Part shown: piece after piece, positions 54,101 through 64,000 of the stretch
Layout of the letters: every line of letters starts with the position of its first letter
How positions within the stretch are numbered: position 1 is the stretch's first letter
DNA from: Trametes villosa
Lineage: Eukaryota > Basidiomycota > Agaricomycetes > Polyporales > Polyporaceae
Length of the DNA stretch: 64,000 nt
Assembly (NCBI GenBank): GCA_002964805.2
Contig: PUDQ02000008.1
Location: 39,042 to 103,041 of the forward strand
Direction of reading: 5' to 3'
Notes under the pieces: model-generated
The model's input: the letters and a program-made list of their open reading frames with translations, nothing else
Databases searched by the model: none
Told to the model about the DNA's origin: nothing
Program-made: the position numbers and the translations under genes

Positions 54101-55962
54101 GGGCTGCGCTCGCGCCGACCTTCGGTTTCCGAGCTGCGATGACCGCGTGCGTGCACCTGGACGGAGGTATCCTATCGTGTGGAGCCCTCGGCGCGAACCG
54201 CCGCGGCTCGACCAAGCTGAACCTCGGTACGCTCGCTGGTGATCGACGTTTATTTGCAGATCGCTTACCGAATTCAAGCTGCAGAGTGTCCACCCACGCC
54301 GGGGCCCGCCCGCCATCATGGAGATGCGCGTGAGGCTAGAGAACACGCGCGGCGCCCATCTGCGCCTGCCGGTCGAGCGGAGCGCGGCGGATGTGTGCGC
54401 ATCGAGCGTGCTCGTACGACGCCACCCCCGTGCGCCGCAGCAATGCGTCTCCAAATTAGTACGGCATGCGCGCGTCGTTGGGACACGGGGCGCCCTCAGG
54501 GCAAACGCAGTCGGACGCAGCTGCTCTCGAGGATACAGCATCAGACTCGATGCTCACCTTGCCGCGCAATGACATCCGAATGCTGACACTGGCCCAGGTC
54601 TTTGCAGGCCGAAACACGACCGGGCGGGTCCTTGGACAATCAGGATTCAGGCCGCGCGTCCACTCGATGTCAATGTAAGCGTGTCTTTCTCGCGCCAGCC
54701 TGAAACAGGGACTGAAAAGCAAGCCCGGTAAGCTGACAGGCAACTTCATATCTGCGTCCGCTTCTAGGCTTGACGTGCCCGGATGGGATAGCCACACGCC
54801 ACGCCCGCGATGCAAGCATGCCAGTGTATTCTCGGCGATGTTCCGCAACGCACGCCGTCTCTCCTAGCGAGCCGCTTCTCCGACCCGTCGAACTCCCTGG
54901 TGTGCGCGCGCCGCGCTCCCTGGCTCGCTCGCGAATCAGTCTCCTGCTTTGTTGTTCAACTCGCCTCGTCTCGTCTCGCCATTTACTACGTGCCTCGCAC
55001 ACACCGCCTCCGCTCTGGCGAGACACTCGGAAGTCGCCGACGGCTATGCTTCTGTTCACGACCGCGCGAGAGGGGCGTTCCGGGATGTTCTCTTGGCTGG
55101 GCTCGGTGGGCATTCACGACACTCTATCCCACGTCTTCAAGTTGCGGCGGGCGTTCACTGCGTTCACACAGACGATTTATTCAGGTAACAGGGGGCACAA
55201 GGGCGGCCCGCGCTTTTGCGACGACGTCTTCGTGCGGTATGGCAAAGCCCGGTGTATGGCCTGTGGAGGTCGAGTGCACGGATATGAACGGCGCGTTGAG
55301 GGACAAGTCGCCGTCGGACAAGCCAACGGCGACGGGCCGGAGCAAATGCGAAGAGGGGGCGCCCGGAGGGAACCTCGCAGCACGGGAGAGCGTGTACAAC
55401 ACGCTCCCGGGCGTGTGGCTTCCCAATCTGGTGGCGGGTTGTGGGCAGCCTGGGCGGAGCGATTTAGCGTGAAGCATCGCGTGCAGCCGGCGACGAACCC
55501 GGTCAGGGCAAGCGGTACGCCCGGCGCAATGGGCCTTAGAGTGAACGAGAAGGGTCGGACGAGCGGCTCTCACGAGATTGGAGGTCCCGGAGACTGACGC
55601 GGGGCCGGGTGCAGCGGGTGATTGGCGGGAGGTAATACAATTTGCGGCGGACGAGCGGGATCGCCGCCGGGCGTAAGGGATACGGTGTACACTCCCGAGC
55701 AGCGGCGAGCTTGCCGACGGCCCTGGCACCCAATCGCTGTAGCTGCCGTCTGCTGTCGACGCAGCGGCGGAATATGATAGTAAATGCGGCCACGGAGTTC
55801 GAGATAATGGGCATCTTATTCCCTCTGAATACCGAGTCCGAAGGAGTTGCAGTCGGAGAGCTCTTGCAAATGATGTTAGTACGGTGTTTTCAATGTCTCG
55901 GTTGCATTGTCCAGCAGGGATGTGGCTGCCCGAGACGTCCGACATCCGCTCCGCTCCGTATC
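51198..55962. other. GC-rich stretch without recognisable genes
   Basis: Nearly 4.8 kb of high-GC, CpG-rich DNA. Long open frames exist in almost every frame on both strands (for example - 51793-52599 and - 53612-54541), but they overlap one another, have Arg/Ala/Ser-dominated random-looking composition, no domains and no consistent exon structure. They are best explained by scarcity of AT-rich stop codons. No intact transposon gene or tandem array was found. Confidence 0.5.
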
Positions 55963-56354
55963 TGTAACGACCCTCCGTGGTCGTTACGGGTTCTTGTAGG
56001 ACATAGCGCTAGTTGCGCTATGTCGCGATCAGTACCTAGCGCTAGTTGCGCTAGGATAAGATACCGCGTAGATATCATGTAGTAGATAGACGCGTACGAC
56101 GCGCGGGTATTCGGAGCCCGCGCGTCTGGTGAGGGCAGCCTTCTACAACTGCCCCACCATCTCCCGAGTACGCCGAGCCCTAATAGAGCCCGGACCAGAG
56201 TACTTGGAGACTGCGGGCATCAGAAGTGCCCGACACCCGTGAGTTTTACACTTTTTTACTCTTACCGTGTTAGAATCGCCCGATTTGGGGCTCGACGTGC
56301 AACCACGTCATCGAACTCTAATCCCCTAGCAACCCCCATCCGCATCCAGCAAGA
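55963..56354 (+). repeat. Candidate 5' LTR and leader, tandem perfect hairpins
   Basis: Three hairpins open the element: a 9 bp stem at 55964-55972/55979-55987, a 9 bp stem at 56001-56009/56015-56023 and an 8 bp stem at 56035-56042/56048-56055. The second and third share the same TAGTT loop and the GCGC stem base. Further hairpins follow (CGCGCGGG with CCCGCGCG near 56100-56125; GACGTG with CACGTC near 56295-56310). The LTR 3' end and primer-binding site are not resolved. Confidence 0.6.
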
Positions 56355-59300
56355 ATGAGCCACCACAGCTCAAACAACCCCACGGACCCGCGAACTCCGC
56401 GGGCCTCGACTTCTACCTCGAACCAACCCCCCCGCGCTGAGTTCGGCGCGGGTCAACCCGCCACGTCACTCCCTCGATCTACAGAGGGCGAGGGTGGACC
56501 CTCGATACCACAATCAGTGGTATCCGGCGGCTTAGACGATACCACGAACCCTACTAGGGGTCGTGCGACTGCCAGCGTGCATGCTGGACGACCGGCTTCA
56601 GACCAAGCAGGCCCGTCACGACGATCGGGCTCCGCTGCGAGCTCGCTTAACAGTCGGAGTCTTGCCAACATTGGGCAAGACTGGCAGGATCTGCGTGAGG
56701 GACGCTCGCAGCAGTTGGCTGCGAGCTCGTCAGTGTCGGCGGCACCGGCACTGAACCTTGCGCCGTTGCGCATGGTAGTTCGGGAATCGAAGAAACGATT
56801 CCGTCTGCTGCAGAAGCAGATACTCGAGGCAGAAAACGAGACGAACCTCGCTCTGCAGTCCGCATTAGCGGAATTAGGCCTAGGTGACCTAATGGACGAA
56901 GAAGACGAGGAGGACCTTACCGCTCGCGCTATAGCGGTAAGTGACGATGCCGATGCAGGGCACCACATTCATCAGCCTATCGTGGCTGGTGAGGATGAGA
57001 GCGACGAGTTGCCTATGACAAGGGCAACCATAGATACACATATCAGCTCAGCTGCTGATCCGCAAATGGAGAACTTCGCGGATGATCGCGAAGTAGAGGA
57101 TGCACTGTTGGATCCTCGCCAGCGTATCGTCGCTGGCCGGATTGAACGACTGAGTCGTGCGGGGCTGTATGATCCACCGCACACGACGGCGCAACTGCCG
57201 CCGTCCTCATCAAACCGTCGAACTGGCGATGCACAGAATGCCGTTCCTCCTCGGAACGTGGCATTCGATCATCCGCAAGGCTCGACTAGGGCTGCGCATG
57301 TCGCGCAGCCAATTCCATCCTCGCCCAGCGAATATCCCGCTGAGCCTATGTCTGCGTCCCAAGGACCCGCGTACCGTCAAGAACGGCCGCCTGGACTATG
57401 GGACTGGAAACACCCTCGACGTTCAATGGGAGCGTCTGCATATTACGGAGGACTACCTCCTATGCAGCCAGCGGAAGCTACGGAACCGCTGGCATACACG
57501 GGGCCTGTAGTAGGGCCTCGTGATGGTGTAACGATCAGCCGTCTCGTACGGATGATAGATGAGATGGTTGGATCACCTCCAGAGGGTGATCCCCCTGCGT
57601 ACTTGAAGGTGGCGAAACTTGCGCCACCCAAGACGTACGAGGGGAAGGACGATCTCGATGCACTCGAGGTATGGCTGCGAGGCCTCCTCGAGTACTTCAA
57701 CACGTTGAGGATCACGGGTCCTAGGATGGACCGTGACCGTGTCCGAATATTGGGCACTGCACTTAGCGGTGATGCCGCTACGTGGTTCTACAACACTATA
57801 CAGTCTCCGTCGCGCGATAAGCGCGACTGGATATTCGAGGAGACTGTTATAGCACTCTATCGTAGGTTCATCCATAAGGATTTGAACCTACTTGCGGAGC
57901 AACAGTATGCTTCGCTAATTTGCCGCTCCAGTGACGGAGGGGTTGCAGCTTTATATGAGAAGCTGCTGTACATATCCGAAAGGATGTGGGAGAAGCCTAC
58001 GCCCTTCCAATTGCGTAGGAAGTTCATTGAGGCGTTACCCGAAGACATCGAGTACCTACTTACCGTTGTTAACGGTATGTCTCCTCAAGAACACGACTTG
58101 GCACAATTGTACCAAGTGGCTCAAGATATTGAGCAGAAGTCGCGCGCTATGCGGCTTCGGAAGTTAGCTCGCGAACCTTCGCGAGCACATACTATACCGA
58201 ACACCGGTGCTAAGCCGACGGTAGAGGCACGCCCGCAACGAGGAGTGCGTAATGTACTTAGGAAGCCAACGGCTTCGGCTTCCCGTAGTAATAATATTAC
58301 GATACATAAAGCTACTACTGGCTTTAAACGCCCTTCGACAGACGTGCGAGGTGGTTCGGTACCGCGTCAGTCTGGCGCGGTGCAGCAATCCGCGTCAACT
58401 GCGCGGATTGATAAGACTCAGAAAGCACCTCTTAAGTGCTATTCCTGTGGTCAAATAGGCCACTTCGCGAGCGACGCGAAATGTCCCAACTACGGGAAGA
58501 AATCCGCTACAGTACAGCGGATGTTCGCTCAGCGTGTCATCGACGACACGTCGGACGACGGCAACGAGCCGTCTACACAACAAGACGTTGCCGACGACAA
58601 CACGGCAACTCGTCCCGAGGATCAAGAGCCTGAACCCGAGGCTCTTGCGGATAGCCCAGACGATAACGGAGAATATCCGTTGTCAGACTATGGTCTGGAA
58701 GGATCTCAGTATGATCCTGACGAGGATCATTACGCATCTCCTGGAGAGGGAGATGCAGATGAATACTTCATCGCGATGCGTATTGCACCGCTGGAAGAGG
58801 CCGAACCTGAGCCTCTTCGGTTACACACCATGGCGGTTGCACCCACGCGAGGGTACAAGCAGGCCTGGTTATACGACAACAAGATACGTCGTATAGACGA
58901 TCCCGCGGCGCAACCTGTGCGCACGCTCCAGGCCCAGCGCACACTATGCGCTGAGATTACAATCAATAAGGTCACAGCTCTGGCCTTATTCGACTCGGGC
59001 TGCACGACCGATTCGATTACGCCAGAGTTGGCGTATCTGAGTCGCGCAGATCGTATCGATCTGGCGCAGCCTGTAGGGCTGCAATTGGGAACCAAGGGCA
59101 GCAAGACGCGCATCAATTATGGTGCGCAAGCAGAGCTCAAGGTGGGCTCTGTGAATACTACGCAATACTTTGACGTAGTAGACATCGATAAGTACGATGT
59201 CGTGTTGGGAACTACCTTCTGCAGGAAGCATGGAGTAATCCTAGACTTCCGTGCAGGTACGGTAGTAATCAACGGCAAAAGTTTGCCGTTGTTCGATCCT

Positions 59301-59384
59301 GAGGTTTCGACGACTGCGAAACCCGAACCCAAGAAATGGGTTCCTCGATTCCAATTCGAAGGTACTGCTAAACCTAAGCAGTAG
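56355..59384 (+). CDS. Gag polyprotein with zinc knuckle and aspartic protease
   Basis: A 1009-residue frame starting at ATG. The first 370 residues are Ser/Pro-rich and acidic, probably disordered. A capsid-type retrotransposon gag domain spans about 430-610 (LEVWLRGLLEYFNTLRI, AATWFYNTIQ, LLAEQQYASLICRSSDG, FIEALPEDIEYLL). A CCHC zinc knuckle CYSCGQIGHFASDAKC lies near residue 694, followed by an acidic linker. The C-terminus is a pepsin-like retroviral protease: active-site LFDSGCTTDSI near 877 and DVVLGTTFCRKHG near 948. The nucleocapsid binds element RNA and the protease would cleave the polyprotein. The frame ends in TAG, and the same frame continues without another stop into pol. The sequence is saturated with short hairpins. 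Confidence 0.95.
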   Translation: MSHHSSNNPTDPRTPRASTSTSNQPPRAEFGAGQPATSLPRSTEGEGGPSIPQSVVSGGLDDTTNPTRGRATASVHAGRPASDQAGPSRRSGSAASSLNSRSLANIGQDWQDLREGRSQQLAASSSVSAAPALNLAPLRMVVRESKKRFRLLQKQILEAENETNLALQSALAELGLGDLMDEEDEEDLTARAIAVSDDADAGHHIHQPIVAGEDESDELPMTRATIDTHISSAADPQMENFADDREVEDALLDPRQRIVAGRIERLSRAGLYDPPHTTAQLPPSSSNRRTGDAQNAVPPRNVAFDHPQGSTRAAHVAQPIPSSPSEYPAEPMSASQGPAYRQERPPGLWDWKHPRRSMGASAYYGGLPPMQPAEATEPLAYTGPVVGPRDGVTISRLVRMIDEMVGSPPEGDPPAYLKVAKLAPPKTYEGKDDLDALEVWLRGLLEYFNTLRITGPRMDRDRVRILGTALSGDAATWFYNTIQSPSRDKRDWIFEETVIALYRRFIHKDLNLLAEQQYASLICRSSDGGVAALYEKLLYISERMWEKPTPFQLRRKFIEALPEDIEYLLTVVNGMSPQEHDLAQLYQVAQDIEQKSRAMRLRKLAREPSRAHTIPNTGAKPTVEARPQRGVRNVLRKPTASASRSNNITIHKATTGFKRPSTDVRGGSVPRQSGAVQQSASTARIDKTQKAPLKCYSCGQIGHFASDAKCPNYGKKSATVQRMFAQRVIDDTSDDGNEPSTQQDVADDNTATRPEDQEPEPEALADSPDDNGEYPLSDYGLEGSQYDPDEDHYASPGEGDADEYFIAMRIAPLEEAEPEPLRLHTMAVAPTRGYKQAWLYDNKIRRIDDPAAQPVRTLQAQRTLCAEITINKVTALALFDSGCTTDSITPELAYLSRADRIDLAQPVGLQLGTKGSKTRINYGAQAELKVGSVNTTQYFDVVDIDKYDVVLGTTFCRKHGVILDFRAGTVVINGKSLPLFDPEVSTTAKPEPKKWVPRFQFEGTAKPKQ
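59364..59384 (+). promoter_or_regulatory. In-frame TAG at the foot of a hairpin: candidate stop-codon readthrough site
   Basis: ACTGCT (59364-59369) pairs with AGCAGT (59377-59382) over a seven-nt loop, and the T of the second arm is the first base of the TAG at 59382-59384. The frame stays open from 59385 through pol. Readthrough of a single stop is an established gag-pol strategy in some retroelements; here it is inference. Confidence 0.5.
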
Positions 59385-59408
59385 GACAACGTAGCGAGTT
59401 CCACAAGA

Positions 59409-62400
59409 GTGGAACCTCCCCACTCTCGTTACGACAAGTCCGGAGGGTCGTCAGGAGGGGGAGGGAACGGTGTAGAAACCGTTAAGATTCCTGAACGACA
59501 CCAAGGGCGAGCCAAAGATAGCTCGCCGCCGAACATTGGCGAAAAATTCATTCCGACGATGCATTCGTCGCGAGGTCCTAGAAGGGACAAGTATGGGTAC
59601 GAGGACCCATACGGCATCAACGAGCTCTTGGACAAGATATCCAAGGAGCAGTGGGAAGACGAACAGATCCGACGAACCCACGCTGGGTTCGTCATAGACG
59701 AGGAAGAGGAGGAGCTGAAAGCTCTTCGTGACCGCTGGTATGCGGCCACCGAGGACATTATGCGTCCTGCGCCGGAGCATCTCCCGCCGTTCCGGGAGAT
59801 CAATCACCACATTCCGCTCATCGATGAAGCGAAGAAATATCGCTATCATCTCCCACGTTGCGCGGACGTGGTGAAGCCAGAGCTCATAGCGAAAATCAAT
59901 CGCTATGTGAAGGCAGGCTGGTGGCGACCGGTAACGGTCACGCAAGCAGCGCCTCTGCTGTGCGTTGCCAAGAAGAATGGCAAGCTGCGCACCGTACTCG
60001 ATGCGCGACAACGAAACCAGAACACGGTGCACGACCTGACACCGTTTCCGGATCAAGACCAGATCCGGATGGACGTTGCTCGAGCGAAGTATCGCTCGAA
60101 GATTGATCTGTCCGACGCCTACGAACAGATCCGCATAGTTGCGGAGGACGTGTGGAAGACCGCGTTCGCGACGCCTTACGGGACGTTCGTGAGCGAGGTC
60201 ATGCAACAGGGCGACACCAACGCCCCGTCCACATTCCAACGTCTAATGACAGCCATATTCCGTGACTGTATCGGAAGGTTCGTCCATGTCTATTTGGACG
60301 ACATTTTCGTATTTTCGGACTCCAAGGAGGAGCACGAAGAACACTTAAGGATAGTGTTCGAAAAGCTTCGAGAGGCGAAGCTTTTCCTAAGCCGCAGCAA
60401 GTGCGACTTATACTCCAAAGACTTGGATTGTCTTGGTCACCGAATAGATGACAAGGGACTACACGCCGATACGGACAAGATGAGCCGTATCAGGAACTGG
60501 CGAACACCTCGCTCGTATAACGAGGTGCAGCGGTTCCTCGGGCTAGTAAACTATCTGGCACATTTTATGCCAGATGTAACGGCGTACACATCGCCGTTAT
60601 CGGACATGGTCCATAACGACCGTCCGTTCGTATGGCGCGCACTGCACGACAAGTGTTTTGAGTCTATCAAAGCACTCGCGTGTAAGGTGCCCATACTGAA
60701 GCCGATAGATCCGGCTTCCACAGATCCCATTTGGTTGATCTGTGATGCGTCCGTGTATGGACTCGGAGCGTTATACGGGCAAGGACCCGACTGGCAAACT
60801 TGCAGGCCAGCCGGGTTCCTGTCGAAGAAATTTACGTCCGCACAACGGGCGTATCGCACCTACGAGCAAGAAGCTCTAGCCATCATGGAAGGCTTGTTCA
60901 AGTGGGAGGACAAGCTCATAGGACGAAAGCTCAATATAGTCACTGACCATAGAGCTCTCGAGTTCCTTGAGGGACTCGAGCGTCCTAACCACCGTCAGAT
61001 ACGGTGGTACGAATTCTTGTCGAGGTTCGACAAGACGATTACCTATATTCCAGGTAAACTGAACAAAGTAGCGGACTGCTTATCCCGCTACTTCGAACAC
61101 GACGACATAGAGGAACTAGCCGAAGATTTCGACTATGTTAACGCCGACTTGCGGCTAGATCCTGAAGGGGATGATCTCCCCTTCTCCCGACTCATCGAGC
61201 TACGCGCAGCTCGAGTGTTGCGTCGATCTGCGCGGAAACTCGCGCAGCTAGAGACAGATAACGCGCACGCTACACGCGTGCAAGAACCAATAGAGGAACG
61301 AGTCGTAGAGTCGGCTCGTTACGCTGCACACGCACCTATCTCGGTGACTGCAGCAACCCCGGACAGCGACAATGTGACGCTGTCGGACTCGCTATCTGCG
61401 GGTCCCTCTTTGCGTGTCTGGGTAGAAGGAGACGACGGCTTCCTGAAAGCCGTCAAGTCAGGTTATGTTAATGACCCGACGTTCCAGAAAATACTGGAAC
61501 GGCCTACTCAGCATCGCGCATTCGTAATGCGCGAGGGTGTGATATACACCAAGAACCGTGAAGGCGACGAGGTATTGTGTATACCTCGTGGTCTGTATCG
61601 GAAACGGGCCCTTCAGGAGCTCGTGTTAGACCAAGCGCATAGCGCGCTTGGACATCTTGGACCTCAGCGCACGTCAGAGTACGTGCGCAAGTGGTTTTGG
61701 TGGCCCGCGTTACGCAAGGATGTAGACAAGTTCTGCATTTCGTGCGGCGTGTGCCACACCACGAAAATAAGTACACAGCCCCCTATAGGGCTGTTACACT
61801 CGCTACCGATACCTACGGTGCCATGGACGTCTATGTCCATGGATTTCTTCGGTCCGTTTCCGCCCTCGCACGGATACGACTACATATGGATTGTAGTCTG
61901 TCGGTTGACCTCGATGGTACACCTCATACCCATCAAGACAACCGACACAGCGTCAGACCTGGCGCTGGTCTACTTCAGGGAAGTAGTCCGTCTACACGGG
62001 CTACCGGACTCCATAGTCTCTGATAGAGACTCGAAGTTCACTTCCAAGTTCTGGAAGGAGCTGCATCGCCTTATGGGGGCGAAGCTGCTTATGTCCACGT
62101 CGTTCCATCCACAGACGGATGGATTATCTGAGCGTAGTATACGCTCAGTGTCGCAGATACTCCGTGCACTGGTAGCTCCTGACCAGTTGGACTGGTATGA
62201 GAAGCTACCGATAGCGGAGTTCGCTATCAACTCTGCGGTAAGTTCTACCACAGGGTTCGCTCCGTTCGAGTTGAACTACGGGTATCTCCCGCGTTCTATG
62301 AACGGAATCGGAACGGACACTCCGTTTCGAGGAGTGCGAGAGTTCGCACTCAGAGCCAAGGCGAACTTGGAGATGGCGCATGATGCCATCATCGAGGCGC

Positions 62401-62930
62401 GAGTGCGCCAGACACACTATGCGAATAAGCATAGGCAAGCCGAACCCGACTTTGAGGTCGGGGACAAGGTATACCTATCGACAAAGAATTTGTCGATACC
62501 TAAGGGCCGGGCACGAAAGCTCGTGCCTAAATACATCGGACCGTATGCTATAATTGAGAGCATACCCAGTACGTCAAACTACGTACTGGAGTTACCAGAA
62601 GAACTCCGGAACCGAAGGATACACCCTCGGTTCCACGCGTCGCTATTACGACGCTATGAGCCAAACGACGATGCGGTATTCCCGCATCGTGAGGCGAAGT
62701 CGTATTACGACTTCGGCAATGAAGACTCCACCGAATGGTTGGTGGAAGAGATTATCGGCCACGAGTGGAATGGCAATAAGTGCCAGTTCCACGTGCGGTG
62801 GACGATGGGGGACCATACATGGGAGCCCTACGAGCACTGTAAGGAGCTCGTAGCATTAGACGAGTATTGTCGTCTAATGGGCGTGTCATCTTGGCGCGCG
62901 TTGCCCAAGAAAACATCCGCCAAGACTTAG
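59409..62930 (+). CDS. Pol polyprotein: reverse transcriptase, RNase H, integrase, chromodomain
   Basis: 1173 residues counted from 59409, in the same frame as gag. The first codon here is GTG and the first in-frame ATG is near 59569, so pol is probably made as a gag-pol fusion rather than from its own start. Reverse transcriptase: SKIDLSDAYEQIRI and the catalytic YLDDIFVFS near residue 294. RNase H: WLICDASVYGLGAL near 441 and TYEQEALAIMEGL, then TDHRALEFL. Integrase: zinc HHCC in HSALGHLGPQRT to CISCGVCH near 743-780; catalytic residues in MDFFGPFP near 810, VSDRDSKFTSKFW near 869 and GLSERSIRSV near 905. Chromodomain at about 1107-1165 (EEIIGHEWNGNKCQFHVRW, HTWEPYEHC), which in chromoviruses guides insertion to modified histones. 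All catalytic residues are present. Confidence 0.96.
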   Translation: MEPPHSRYDKSGGSSGGGGNGVETVKIPERHQGRAKDSSPPNIGEKFIPTMHSSRGPRRDKYGYEDPYGINELLDKISKEQWEDEQIRRTHAGFVIDEEEEELKALRDRWYAATEDIMRPAPEHLPPFREINHHIPLIDEAKKYRYHLPRCADVVKPELIAKINRYVKAGWWRPVTVTQAAPLLCVAKKNGKLRTVLDARQRNQNTVHDLTPFPDQDQIRMDVARAKYRSKIDLSDAYEQIRIVAEDVWKTAFATPYGTFVSEVMQQGDTNAPSTFQRLMTAIFRDCIGRFVHVYLDDIFVFSDSKEEHEEHLRIVFEKLREAKLFLSRSKCDLYSKDLDCLGHRIDDKGLHADTDKMSRIRNWRTPRSYNEVQRFLGLVNYLAHFMPDVTAYTSPLSDMVHNDRPFVWRALHDKCFESIKALACKVPILKPIDPASTDPIWLICDASVYGLGALYGQGPDWQTCRPAGFLSKKFTSAQRAYRTYEQEALAIMEGLFKWEDKLIGRKLNIVTDHRALEFLEGLERPNHRQIRWYEFLSRFDKTITYIPGKLNKVADCLSRYFEHDDIEELAEDFDYVNADLRLDPEGDDLPFSRLIELRAARVLRRSARKLAQLETDNAHATRVQEPIEERVVESARYAAHAPISVTAATPDSDNVTLSDSLSAGPSLRVWVEGDDGFLKAVKSGYVNDPTFQKILERPTQHRAFVMREGVIYTKNREGDEVLCIPRGLYRKRALQELVLDQAHSALGHLGPQRTSEYVRKWFWWPALRKDVDKFCISCGVCHTTKISTQPPIGLLHSLPIPTVPWTSMSMDFFGPFPPSHGYDYIWIVVCRLTSMVHLIPIKTTDTASDLALVYFREVVRLHGLPDSIVSDRDSKFTSKFWKELHRLMGAKLLMSTSFHPQTDGLSERSIRSVSQILRALVAPDQLDWYEKLPIAEFAINSAVSSTTGFAPFELNYGYLPRSMNGIGTDTPFRGVREFALRAKANLEMAHDAIIEARVRQTHYANKHRQAEPDFEVGDKVYLSTKNLSIPKGRARKLVPKYIGPYAIIESIPSTSNYVLELPEELRNRRIHPRFHASLLRRYEPNDDAVFPHREAKSYYDFGNEDSTEWLVEEIIGHEWNGNKCQFHVRWTMGDHTWEPYEHCKELVALDEYCRLMGVSSWRALPKKTSAKT

Positions 62931-63177
62931 CGGATGTACGAAGCGCAACATGCGCTTCGTGGTCAAGACTACCCGAGTGAGTAGTCGTGGTGAAGGACAG
63001 AGCACGCGCAGAGAGCGCGTGACCGTGAAGTAGTACGTCACGTGCGGACTCGCGTGCGCGAGGCAGCCACCGACGCGTTCGGACTCCGCCGGCGCTTTAA
63101 GACGGCGACCTCGCGAGTGCAGGGTCATAACCGACCTCTGCCACCTCACCACCACCACCAACAACGACGCCCGCGCC

Positions 63178-64000
63178 ATGAACGACGCCCCGCAAGACAA
63201 CACGCAAGCCAGCAGCTCCGGGCAGCAAGCCTCGGAGCAACAGGGGTCACAACCTGCGGCCCCTCAACAACAAAACATCCCCTTCCCCCAACCTTCGCAG
63301 TTCCTGCTGCCGCAACAAGCGGCAGCTCCCGCATTCTCGTCCATGCCGGGGGTAACCCACCCCCAGCAGTTCCCGCATGCCTTCTCGCAGGGCATGCCCG
63401 CCTACGGGTTTCCGTACGGCGGCGGCTTCCAGTTCCCGCATCAAGCGGGTCCTGCATTCCAGAGCGCGCCCAGTTCGAGCGCGCCGATGCCACAGACTGG
63501 TGGCATCCCCCTCATGCCCTTCTCGAGCATGACCTGGGCGCCCGTAGCGGGCCAACACTTGTTGGTCGCGCACAGCGACAACTGCGCTGTGTGCGCGGAC
63601 TTTGTCCGCCACTACAACTCGGCGGCGTCAGACTCGACGTTCCGGGACGCGCAGACGCGCGTCCAGTCAGAACTGCAGCAGCGGTTCTGGCGGCACTTCG
63701 AGGAGCACCAGAGGGTGGAGGAGGGGAGGAGCCGCGATCGGATCGCGGAGCTCGAGGCGAAGCTCCAGAAGATGAAGGAGCTCGTCGACGAGACGAAGTC
63801 GATCCGGGACAGATACCGGAGCGAGCGCGAGGCCGCTCGCCAGGAGCGCGACGAGTACGAGCGCGAGCGCGATGAGGTGCGCTCGCAGTTGGAGGCTGAG
63901 CTCAGTCGGGCTCGGCACAGGAGGGTGTCGCCTCCGCGCGACGAACGACGACGCGACCCGAGGGAACTCAGCCCTCGGAGGAGGGATACTGCGAACGATA
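63178..64000 (+). CDS. Third open frame of the retroelement, Gln/Pro-rich with coiled coil (3' truncated by window)
   Basis: ATG at 63178-63180 opens a frame with no stop to the window end (274 codons plus one base), 247 nt after the pol stop and in another frame. Residues 1-110 are Gln/Pro/Ser/Ala-rich with Phe-Pro and Gly-Phe repeats. A short Cys/His segment (AHSDNCAVCADFVRHY) follows near 140-155. From about 158 to 250 the chain is a charged heptad-like helix (QQRFWRHFEEHQRVEEG, AELEAKLQKMKELVDE, EREAARQERDEYERE), ending in an Arg/Asp-rich tail. No homology is recognised. It shares the hairpin-rich texture of gag and pol, for example an 8 bp stem at 63486-63493/63500-63507, so it belongs to the element rather than to a neighbouring host gene. 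Confidence 0.65.
   Translation, partial: MNDAPQDNTQASSSGQQASEQQGSQPAAPQQQNIPFPQPSQFLLPQQAAAPAFSSMPGVTHPQQFPHAFSQGMPAYGFPYGGGFQFPHQAGPAFQSAPSSSAPMPQTGGIPLMPFSSMTWAPVAGQHLLVAHSDNCAVCADFVRHYNSAASDSTFRDAQTRVQSELQQRFWRHFEEHQRVEEGRSRDRIAELEAKLQKMKELVDETKSIRDRYRSEREAARQERDEYERERDEVRSQLEAELSRARHRRVSPPRDERRRDPRELSPRRRDTAND

Follow-up and report, generated by a model that had tools for sequence, protein, structure and literature searches.

Introduction

Pervasive base pairing along an entire genome has to date been documented best in certain RNA viruses, in which genome-scale ordered RNA structure (GORS) takes the form of consecutive stem-loops whose positions differ among relatives, with lower diversity at paired sites and with duplexes below the length recognised by sensors (PMC7642675). 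The excess folding energy (MFED) of vertebrate RNA viruses reaches 23.4% at its highest and lies between 7.5 and 17.5% for the structured viruses named in the same report, single viral regions can also exceed 50%, and the benefit that RNA viruses draw from such genome-wide structure is little known (PMC7642675). In the current study this trait is described in a fungal mobile element. The DNA analysed (the window) comprises 64,000 nucleotides (nt) of Trametes villosa and sits at the end of contig C8 in a genome of 46.7 Mb and 140 contigs. Its positions 55963-64000 represent most of one long terminal repeat (LTR) retrotransposon of the Ty3/gypsy type, whose family is termed F1 and whose leader and open reading frames (ORFs) are packed with short perfect hairpins.

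Results

Stems were defined as non-overlapping, perfect Watson-Crick pairings of at least 7 base pairs (bp) with loops of 3-12 nt, and synonymous shuffles provided the null for coding sequence; nulls rest on 8-100 shuffles and folding energies are predictions. The gag-like ORF1 contains 38 such stems as compared to a shuffle mean of 2.70 (maximum 5, 30 shuffles) and pol contains 48 as compared to 3.33 (maximum 6, 30 shuffles; mean 2.43 and maximum 8 when rerun with 100 shuffles), a density of approximately 14 times the shuffle level in each frame. This codon-preserving control had been proposed in the original prediction, an earlier reading of the bare sequence, whose estimate for pol, at least 25 perfect stems of 8-10 bp, is borne out by the 30 stems of at least 8 bp observed there (null mean 0.73, maximum 2, 30 shuffles). 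The part of ORF3 within the window holds nine stems against 1.00 in the null, and the whole of ORF3, as read in a second copy on contig C36 (L012), holds 19 against 3.93. With dinucleotide shuffles as the null, the leader (55961-56354) contains four stems of 7 bp or more where 0.20 are expected, and four of 8 bp or more where 0.07 are expected. Chance and codon usage are ruled out as the cause by the synonymous shuffles.

The texture begins with the 5' LTR at 55963, as had been stated earlier: each kilobase of window 1-56000 holds 0-3 stems of at least 7 bp, while each from 56001 onward holds 9-16, and in L012 the stems extend through ORF3, where they are thinner, to the 3' LTR. Across the 8038 nt of the element in the window there are 154 stems of 6 bp or more, approximately one per 52 nt, which cover 3248 bases; gag and pol together carry 127 perfect stems of this minimum length with a mean gap between hairpins of approximately 31 nt, which makes the earlier figure of one repeat every 30-40 nt a little generous. 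Similarly, with loops of 3-12 nt chance would yield nearer two stems of 8 bp or more per 8 kb than the single one that had been put forward. All seven stems that had been cited by position are real, those at 59671, 60360, 61567, 62128, 62476 and 62854 by recomputation and the gag stem 56916-56924/56933-56941 by eye; the stem previously placed at 60361 starts at 60360 and measures 11 bp rather than 10.

When overlapping stems in gag and pol were included and sorted by loop size, 86 were observed against 4.7 expected for loops of 2-12 nt, 18 against 6.7 for loops of 13-30 nt, 30 against 23 for loops of 31-100 nt, and one against 1.2, which is no excess, for loops of 0-1 nt. An excess at 2-12 nt that is absent at 0-1 nt points to hairpin geometry and not to dyad symmetry, and dyad symmetry for DNA binding is thus ruled out. 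The 119 stems of F1 (window part plus the 3' part from C36) comprise 50 of 7 bp, 40 of 8 bp, 19 of 9 bp, nine of 10 bp and one of 11 bp. Stems with a single mismatch are also over-represented, since 16 helices with 8 or more pairs include one G.U and 12 include one A.C, against about two of each in the null. In the predicted global minimum-energy fold of pol, 45 of the 48 stems are kept and 920 of 1178 pairs span 40 nt or less. The longest run without any stem of 6 bp or more in this part of the window (63022-63214, 193 nt) spans the ATG of ORF3 at 63178, and this start region is possibly kept open.

Relatives of the element were sought with pol across the genome, and 39 of the 227 candidates were scored; among these, family F2 is 75-77% and family F3 57-59% identical at the amino acid (aa) level. 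The pol frames of F2 and F2b contain 14 and ten stems of at least 7 bp, respectively (2.1 expected in each case), F3b contains nine against 2.3 (maximum 6, 50 shuffles), F3c six against 2.8 (null maximum 7) and F3 one against 2.3. Thirty-eight two-kb pol pieces of other elements served as controls, 20 from 149 Ty3-type RNase H matches and 18 from 74 copia-type reverse transcriptase matches; they were picked by differing scores and may include the same family more than once, and three are 48-54% identical to F1. This comparison with other retrotransposons of the genome, also proposed earlier, revealed the texture in none of the 38 pieces, their longest frames holding 0-4 stems of 7 bp or more (null 0.7-2.3), as compared to 24-32 stems in F1 pieces of the same size. 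At 6 bp a few controls slightly exceed the null (e.g., L056, 10 against 5.0, maximum 8). A feature of the genome at large, or of all its retrotransposons, is ruled out by these pieces and by the rest of the window.

Folding energies, calculated on 350-nt fragments with ten dinucleotide shuffles each, follow the same order. The MFED of F1 amounts to 31.9% in gag, 36.5% in pol and 18.2% in ORF3, with a mean of 30.0% over all coding sequence (48 fragments, range 11.5-58.1), that of F2 coding sequence is 23.6%, and the pol frames of F3, F3b and F3c reach 8.9, 8.6 and 15.4%, respectively. The control pieces average 1.8% (means of -10.5 to 10.0, on the strand as stored) and window 1-55900 yields -0.4% (40 fragments), while with a synonymous null in place of the dinucleotide null single controls reach up to 12.7%. 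The texture is therefore graded within one clade, being strongest in F1, clear in F2 and weak or absent in the F3 relatives. Structure in F2 resides in fewer and often longer stems than in F1 (36 measure 7 bp or more, including ten of 10 bp), with a median predicted pair span of 23 nt as opposed to 17 nt. F3c (L027) combines its MFED of 15.4% with few perfect hairpins, and structure lacking the hairpin style may thus be older in the clade. In the tree F1 groups with the Polyporales protein P0001, followed by a T. sanguinea protein, with F2 as sister and F3b on a long, unsure branch.

Thirteen further F1 copies, each read in part, were aligned on the window. To limit ascertainment, a variant between 56500 and 64000 entered the count only if the window had the majority base at that site and at least four other copies were read there; sites where the window departs from the majority stay in the denominators. 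Third-position variants occur at 25 of 459 stem sites (5.4%), 30 of 181 loop sites (16.6%) and 206 of 1496 linker sites (13.8%). The contrast between stem sites and those outside holds both for shared variants (5/459 vs 92/1677, Fisher p 1e-5) and for singletons (20/459 vs 144/1677, p 0.002). At first positions singletons are fewer in stems (6/443 vs 54/1692, p 0.04) and shared variants equal; at second positions singletons are equal and shared variants number 0/446 vs 13/1690 (p 0.08). Outside gag and pol, in the spacer and the sequence after pol including the start of ORF3, neither singletons (4/182 vs 48/912) nor shared variants (0 vs 15) give a contrast that is significant alone. Among third-position variants, pairing is lowered by seven of the 120 shared ones and 31 of the 169 singletons, against 607 of 2136 possible transitions. 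At nine sites other copies have a complete stem that a single mismatch interrupts in the window. In F2, third positions that differ between F2b and F2c number six of 85 in stems and 189 of 1081 outside, and the ten stems of F2b show no differences at 174 sites in F2 and F2c; as F2 and F2c are 99.5% identical, these are in effect one comparison. The expectation that copies keep the pairing is accordingly upheld in both families, and the lower variation in stems matches the prediction of purifying selection, suggesting from the aligned copies that selection keeps the hairpins.

A mutational origin, whereby a polymerase engaged in reverse transcription or replication folds back and copies one arm onto the other, perfecting and repairing quasi-palindromes to no benefit while selection on the protein filters the outcome, has to be weighed against these data. 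The hairpin geometry of the loops, the random placement of the hairpins, the inclusion of the leader along with coding sequence and the lack of a clear strand preference in several tests would all suit such a process, and template switching has been demonstrated in genes of yeast (PMC8604942) and proposed for the coding palindromes of nematomorphs (PMC6649704). Fast repair through arm copying would likewise reduce the variation of stems, but it should leave loop inversions, clusters and spread changes. None of 864 loop-by-copy comparisons reveals an inversion and none of 54 substitution pairs within 2 nt falls in a stem, although the copies have common ancestry and neither count is of independent events; the stems of F2b are unchanged in F2 and F2c; and variants that raise pairing are not in excess (10/289 vs 79/2136 possible). 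The excess of single-mismatch stems is moreover unlike the all-or-none identity described for nematomorph palindromes (PMC6649704), and none of the 38 pieces of other elements has the texture. Ongoing formation of stems by mutation is thus not seen. The test for traces is of limited power because inversions have been seen only with arms longer than 9 bp (PMC8604942), a length reached by ten of the 119 stems, and arm-copying mutation may have come in a past burst. Overall, we regard a mutational origin as unlikely. Of the two causes named in the original prediction, selection on a folded strand is better supported than template switching, traces of which were not found among the copies.

Selection for the folded state seems to have worked largely through codon choice. 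Third-position identity of F1 to F2 and F3 is 40 and 36%, respectively, near saturation, while first and second positions are equally conserved inside and outside stems, which indicates that the stems arose mostly via synonymous change; a cost to the protein, for which lower first- and second-position identity in stems would be the sign, is not apparent in these comparisons. Pairing in the 3-3 codon phase, which couples first with second positions, occurs in fewer stems than expected (20 of 86, as compared to 42%, 2.43/5.77, in the null). Positions of the stems have turned over between families: of the 48 stems in F1 pol, only three have all of their pairs at the corresponding site in F2. The shared hairpins are listed in Table 1, together with one over a conserved reverse transcriptase segment and one in which F1 copies differ.

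The question of which molecule is folded was approached by comparing strands. Sense MFED exceeds antisense in F1 (30.0 vs 26.8) and in F2 (23.6 vs 18.4), the overlap of fragments making the p values too small, and does so under the synonymous null in six of six ORFs; set against the 38 controls this lean gives p 0.007, the six ORFs coming from two related families. Helix mismatches in F1 that a synonymous change could mend number 20 for G.U and seven for A.C (null 4.6 and 8.8), with the same direction at three other thresholds.

Several observations weigh against selection on folded sense RNA. The 38 controls also lean towards sense (mean +1.7), and F1 pol is nearly equal on the two strands (37.2 sense, 36.1 antisense). 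Mendable mismatches in F2 are balanced (G.U 9, A.C 9), as are raw G.U/A.C helix mismatches in both families (25/25 in F1, 20/21 in F2), and A.C outnumbers G.U both at pairs directly flanking F1 stems (20 to 7) and among synonymous stem polymorphisms (17 to 7, from 251 and 210 opportunities). In 90-nt windows of F1 gag the z value is -11.8 for sense and -18.6 for antisense, and the drop in the predicted mean probability of an open 8-mer in pol, from 0.052 to 0.034 on the sense strand, is at least as strong in antisense. Mismatches forced by coding in gag, pol and ORF3 of F1 comprise 27 A.C, 25 G.U and 31 others (null 3.8, 2.8 and 27.2); this equal enrichment of A.C and G.U is not expected from RNA stability, and decay by non-synonymous transitions is the only account offered for it. 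Among pairs altered on both sides between F1 and F2, 18 of 38 are still Watson-Crick, a weak excess over the approximately 13 expected if one in three pairs by chance. Compensatory changes are few, the search for them among F1 copies that had been advised earlier having found one change on both sides. Furthermore, the spacing of the hairpins is no more even than random.

Neither loop composition nor raw G.U counts reveal an asymmetry of strands, and the evidence for selection on a folded strand is not simple, given that some tests show no preference for G.U over A.C. Selection might instead act on single-stranded complementary DNA (cDNA) or on both strands, for example by hindering sense-antisense annealing. 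The near symmetry of G.U and A.C and the predicted inaccessibility of either strand speak for this reading; the sense excess in all six ORFs and the scarcity of mendable A.C mismatches in F1, where G.U is kept, speak against it, and we consider it very unlikely. The strand tests disagree, leaning towards RNA, and the sense strand, rather than DNA as the folded molecule.

The order of reverse transcriptase, RNase H and integrase between the LTRs is the Ty3/gypsy arrangement, and the pol frame, open already from 59385, matches the Pfam families RVT_1, RT_RNaseH, Integrase_H2C2 and SH3_Tf2-1, with a Chromo match at the integrase end below the cut-off (22.7 bits, E 9e-5, cut-off 25.1). Full F1 elements measure approximately 10.5 kb, the C36 copy L012 supplying the remainder of ORF3 and the 3' LTR, and the 5' LTR of the window is 95.5-97.2% identical to the 3' LTRs of L012, L010 and L019. 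The end of the gag-like ORF1 looks protease-like by eye, by a motif that we take to be that of a protease. In the F2 copy L024, as in the window, gag, TAG and pol lie in one frame, and in F1 paired sequence follows directly 3' of the TAG; the reading frames suggest readthrough of this stop codon in F1 and F2. ORF3 (L012:2257-4823, - strand) yielded no Pfam family above cut-off; by eye it holds a coiled-coil-like stretch, and F2 carries an ORF of similar size. A 1-kb piece of gag has 24 matches in the genome, including that of the window itself, of which 17 span the whole piece at 96-100% identity. Several F1 copies begin at or run into contig ends (C8, C36, C40, C46, C38, C116, C66, C61 and C95), as expected since repeats break assemblies. 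The closest named proteins to pol are from Trametes (76% aa), and a search of viral contigs found no relatives of the element.

Table 1. Features of the F1 element and its hairpins (positions in the window)
Feature	Position	Strand	Remarks
5' LTR, approximately 288 bp, begins with TG, contains perfect hairpins	55963..56250	+	95.5-97.2% identical to 3' LTRs of L012, L010 and L019
ORF1, gag-like, 1009 aa, zinc knuckle	56355..59384	+	zf-CCHC by Pfam
Single TAG separating gag from pol in one common frame	59382..59384	+	Same layout in F2
ORF2, pol: reverse transcriptase, RNase H, integrase, chromodomain-like end	59409..62930	+	By Pfam, Chromo match below cut-off
ORF3, start	63178..63999	+	In the C36 copy, 855 codons counted from this ATG
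8-bp hairpin common to F2	60080..60099	+	8/8 pairs in F2
7-bp hairpin over reverse transcriptase codons FVHVYLDD, which we take to be the catalytic motif	60280..60301	+	6/7 pairs in F2, 5/7 in F3
8-bp hairpin common to F2, loop altered	61821..61842	+	8/8 pairs in F2
7-bp hairpin common to F2, one compensatory T-A to C-G	61970..61986	+	7/7 pairs in F2
Stem with variable outer pair	62913..62937	+	Outer pair A-T in 6/7 copies read, G-C in one

Discussion

An excess of hairpins that is restricted to one clade among the sampled elements, conserved within families and turned over between them, calls for an explanation, and selection for pervasive local RNA structure of a GORS-like kind, the likeliest benefit being poor access for the small-RNA machinery, is the one that we hold to be, on balance, probable. 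One clade of Ty3/gypsy-type elements would have evolved short-range structure along its genome, mostly by synonymous codon choice, and in F1 this structure would consist of perfect hairpins, 7-11 bp long, whose loops measure a few nt. Selection would target foldedness more than individual hairpins, since the positions of these mostly differ between sister families while paired sites are conserved within a family. The folded molecule would most likely be the sense RNA, which serves as both mRNA and genomic RNA, and its likeliest gain would be that host small-RNA machinery finds it hard to reach. Each stem of 7-11 bp is too short for Dicer. Matches to the Piwi, RdRP and RNase III families occur in the genome, making a shield from RNA silencing, as we infer it, a natural benefit for a retrotransposon. 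A more specific version, in which a transposon lineage made its genome a chain of sub-Dicer hairpins to counter silencing through a stepwise arms race in synonymous sites from F3 via F2 to F1, is a tentative possibility at most.

The main alternative use of the structure is in packaging, whereby folding would be selected for compaction of genomic RNA in virus-like particles, a Gag zinc knuckle binding many hairpins, and not for silencing. Gag does carry a zinc knuckle, the structure covers genomic RNA from the LTR through the 3' untranslated region, and GORS genomes appear compact and inaccessible to probes (PMC7642675). Other elements, several with many near-equal matches, nevertheless lack the texture in the pieces read, and the loops of F1 are A+T-rich with no motif seen by eye in the stem list, no formal motif search having been made. 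Packaging appears to us more doubtful still than a mutational origin. Given that weakly structured relatives and host silencing genes are found in the same genome, the choice between shield, packaging and mutation is testable. The element also shows the extent to which the synonymous sites of a transposon may be under selection, which matters when copies are dated by synonymous change.

In the literature searched, which included few subscription papers and to which a search on Trametes with Ty3 did not belong, no precedent for a hairpin-packed retrotransposon was found, and to this extent the original statement that no described element shares the feature holds; pervasive structure in RNA viruses and coding palindromes in worm mitochondria are, however, described. 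Among Polyporales, the Ty3/gypsy proteins P0001 and P0002 (Trametes pubescens) and P0003 (T. sanguinea) have pol sequences 76-86% identical, P0001 being the nearest to F1 in the tree and P0002 being 85% identical to F2. The palindromes of nematomorph mitochondria resemble those of F1 as perfect inverted repeats scattered in functional coding sequence with the 3-3 phase under-used; in contrast, they reside in mitochondrial genes and not in a nuclear retrotransposon, measure up to 284 bp where the longest of the 119 F1 stems measures 11 bp (range 7-11 bp), and lack the excess of imperfect repeats that is clear in F1 (PMC6649704). Repeats homogenised by template switching are likewise short and inverted and occur in coding DNA (PMC8604942, PMC8794818). 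The loop-inversion arms among the tabulated cases are 10-16 bp long (PMC8604942) as compared to mostly 7-9 bp in F1, and the loop inversions and clustered arm changes that mark such repeats were not found among the copies here.

The closest likeness is to GORS, with which F1 has in common many stem-loops one after another in coding sequence, duplexes that are short and interrupted, MFED raised throughout, pairings poorly conserved in position between relatives and less diversity at paired sites. The F1 coding mean of 30% lies above the viral maximum of 23.4% (PMC7642675), here in a nuclear multi-copy element and under a slightly different protocol with larger steps and ten shuffles per fragment, and it is reached, unlike in GORS viruses, via many perfect 7-11 bp hairpins. 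GORS is moreover a property of positive-strand RNA virus genomes linked with persistence, while F1 is a fungal LTR retrotransposon; for this reason the element stands outside GORS as defined, which it resembles and in whose manner it perhaps works.

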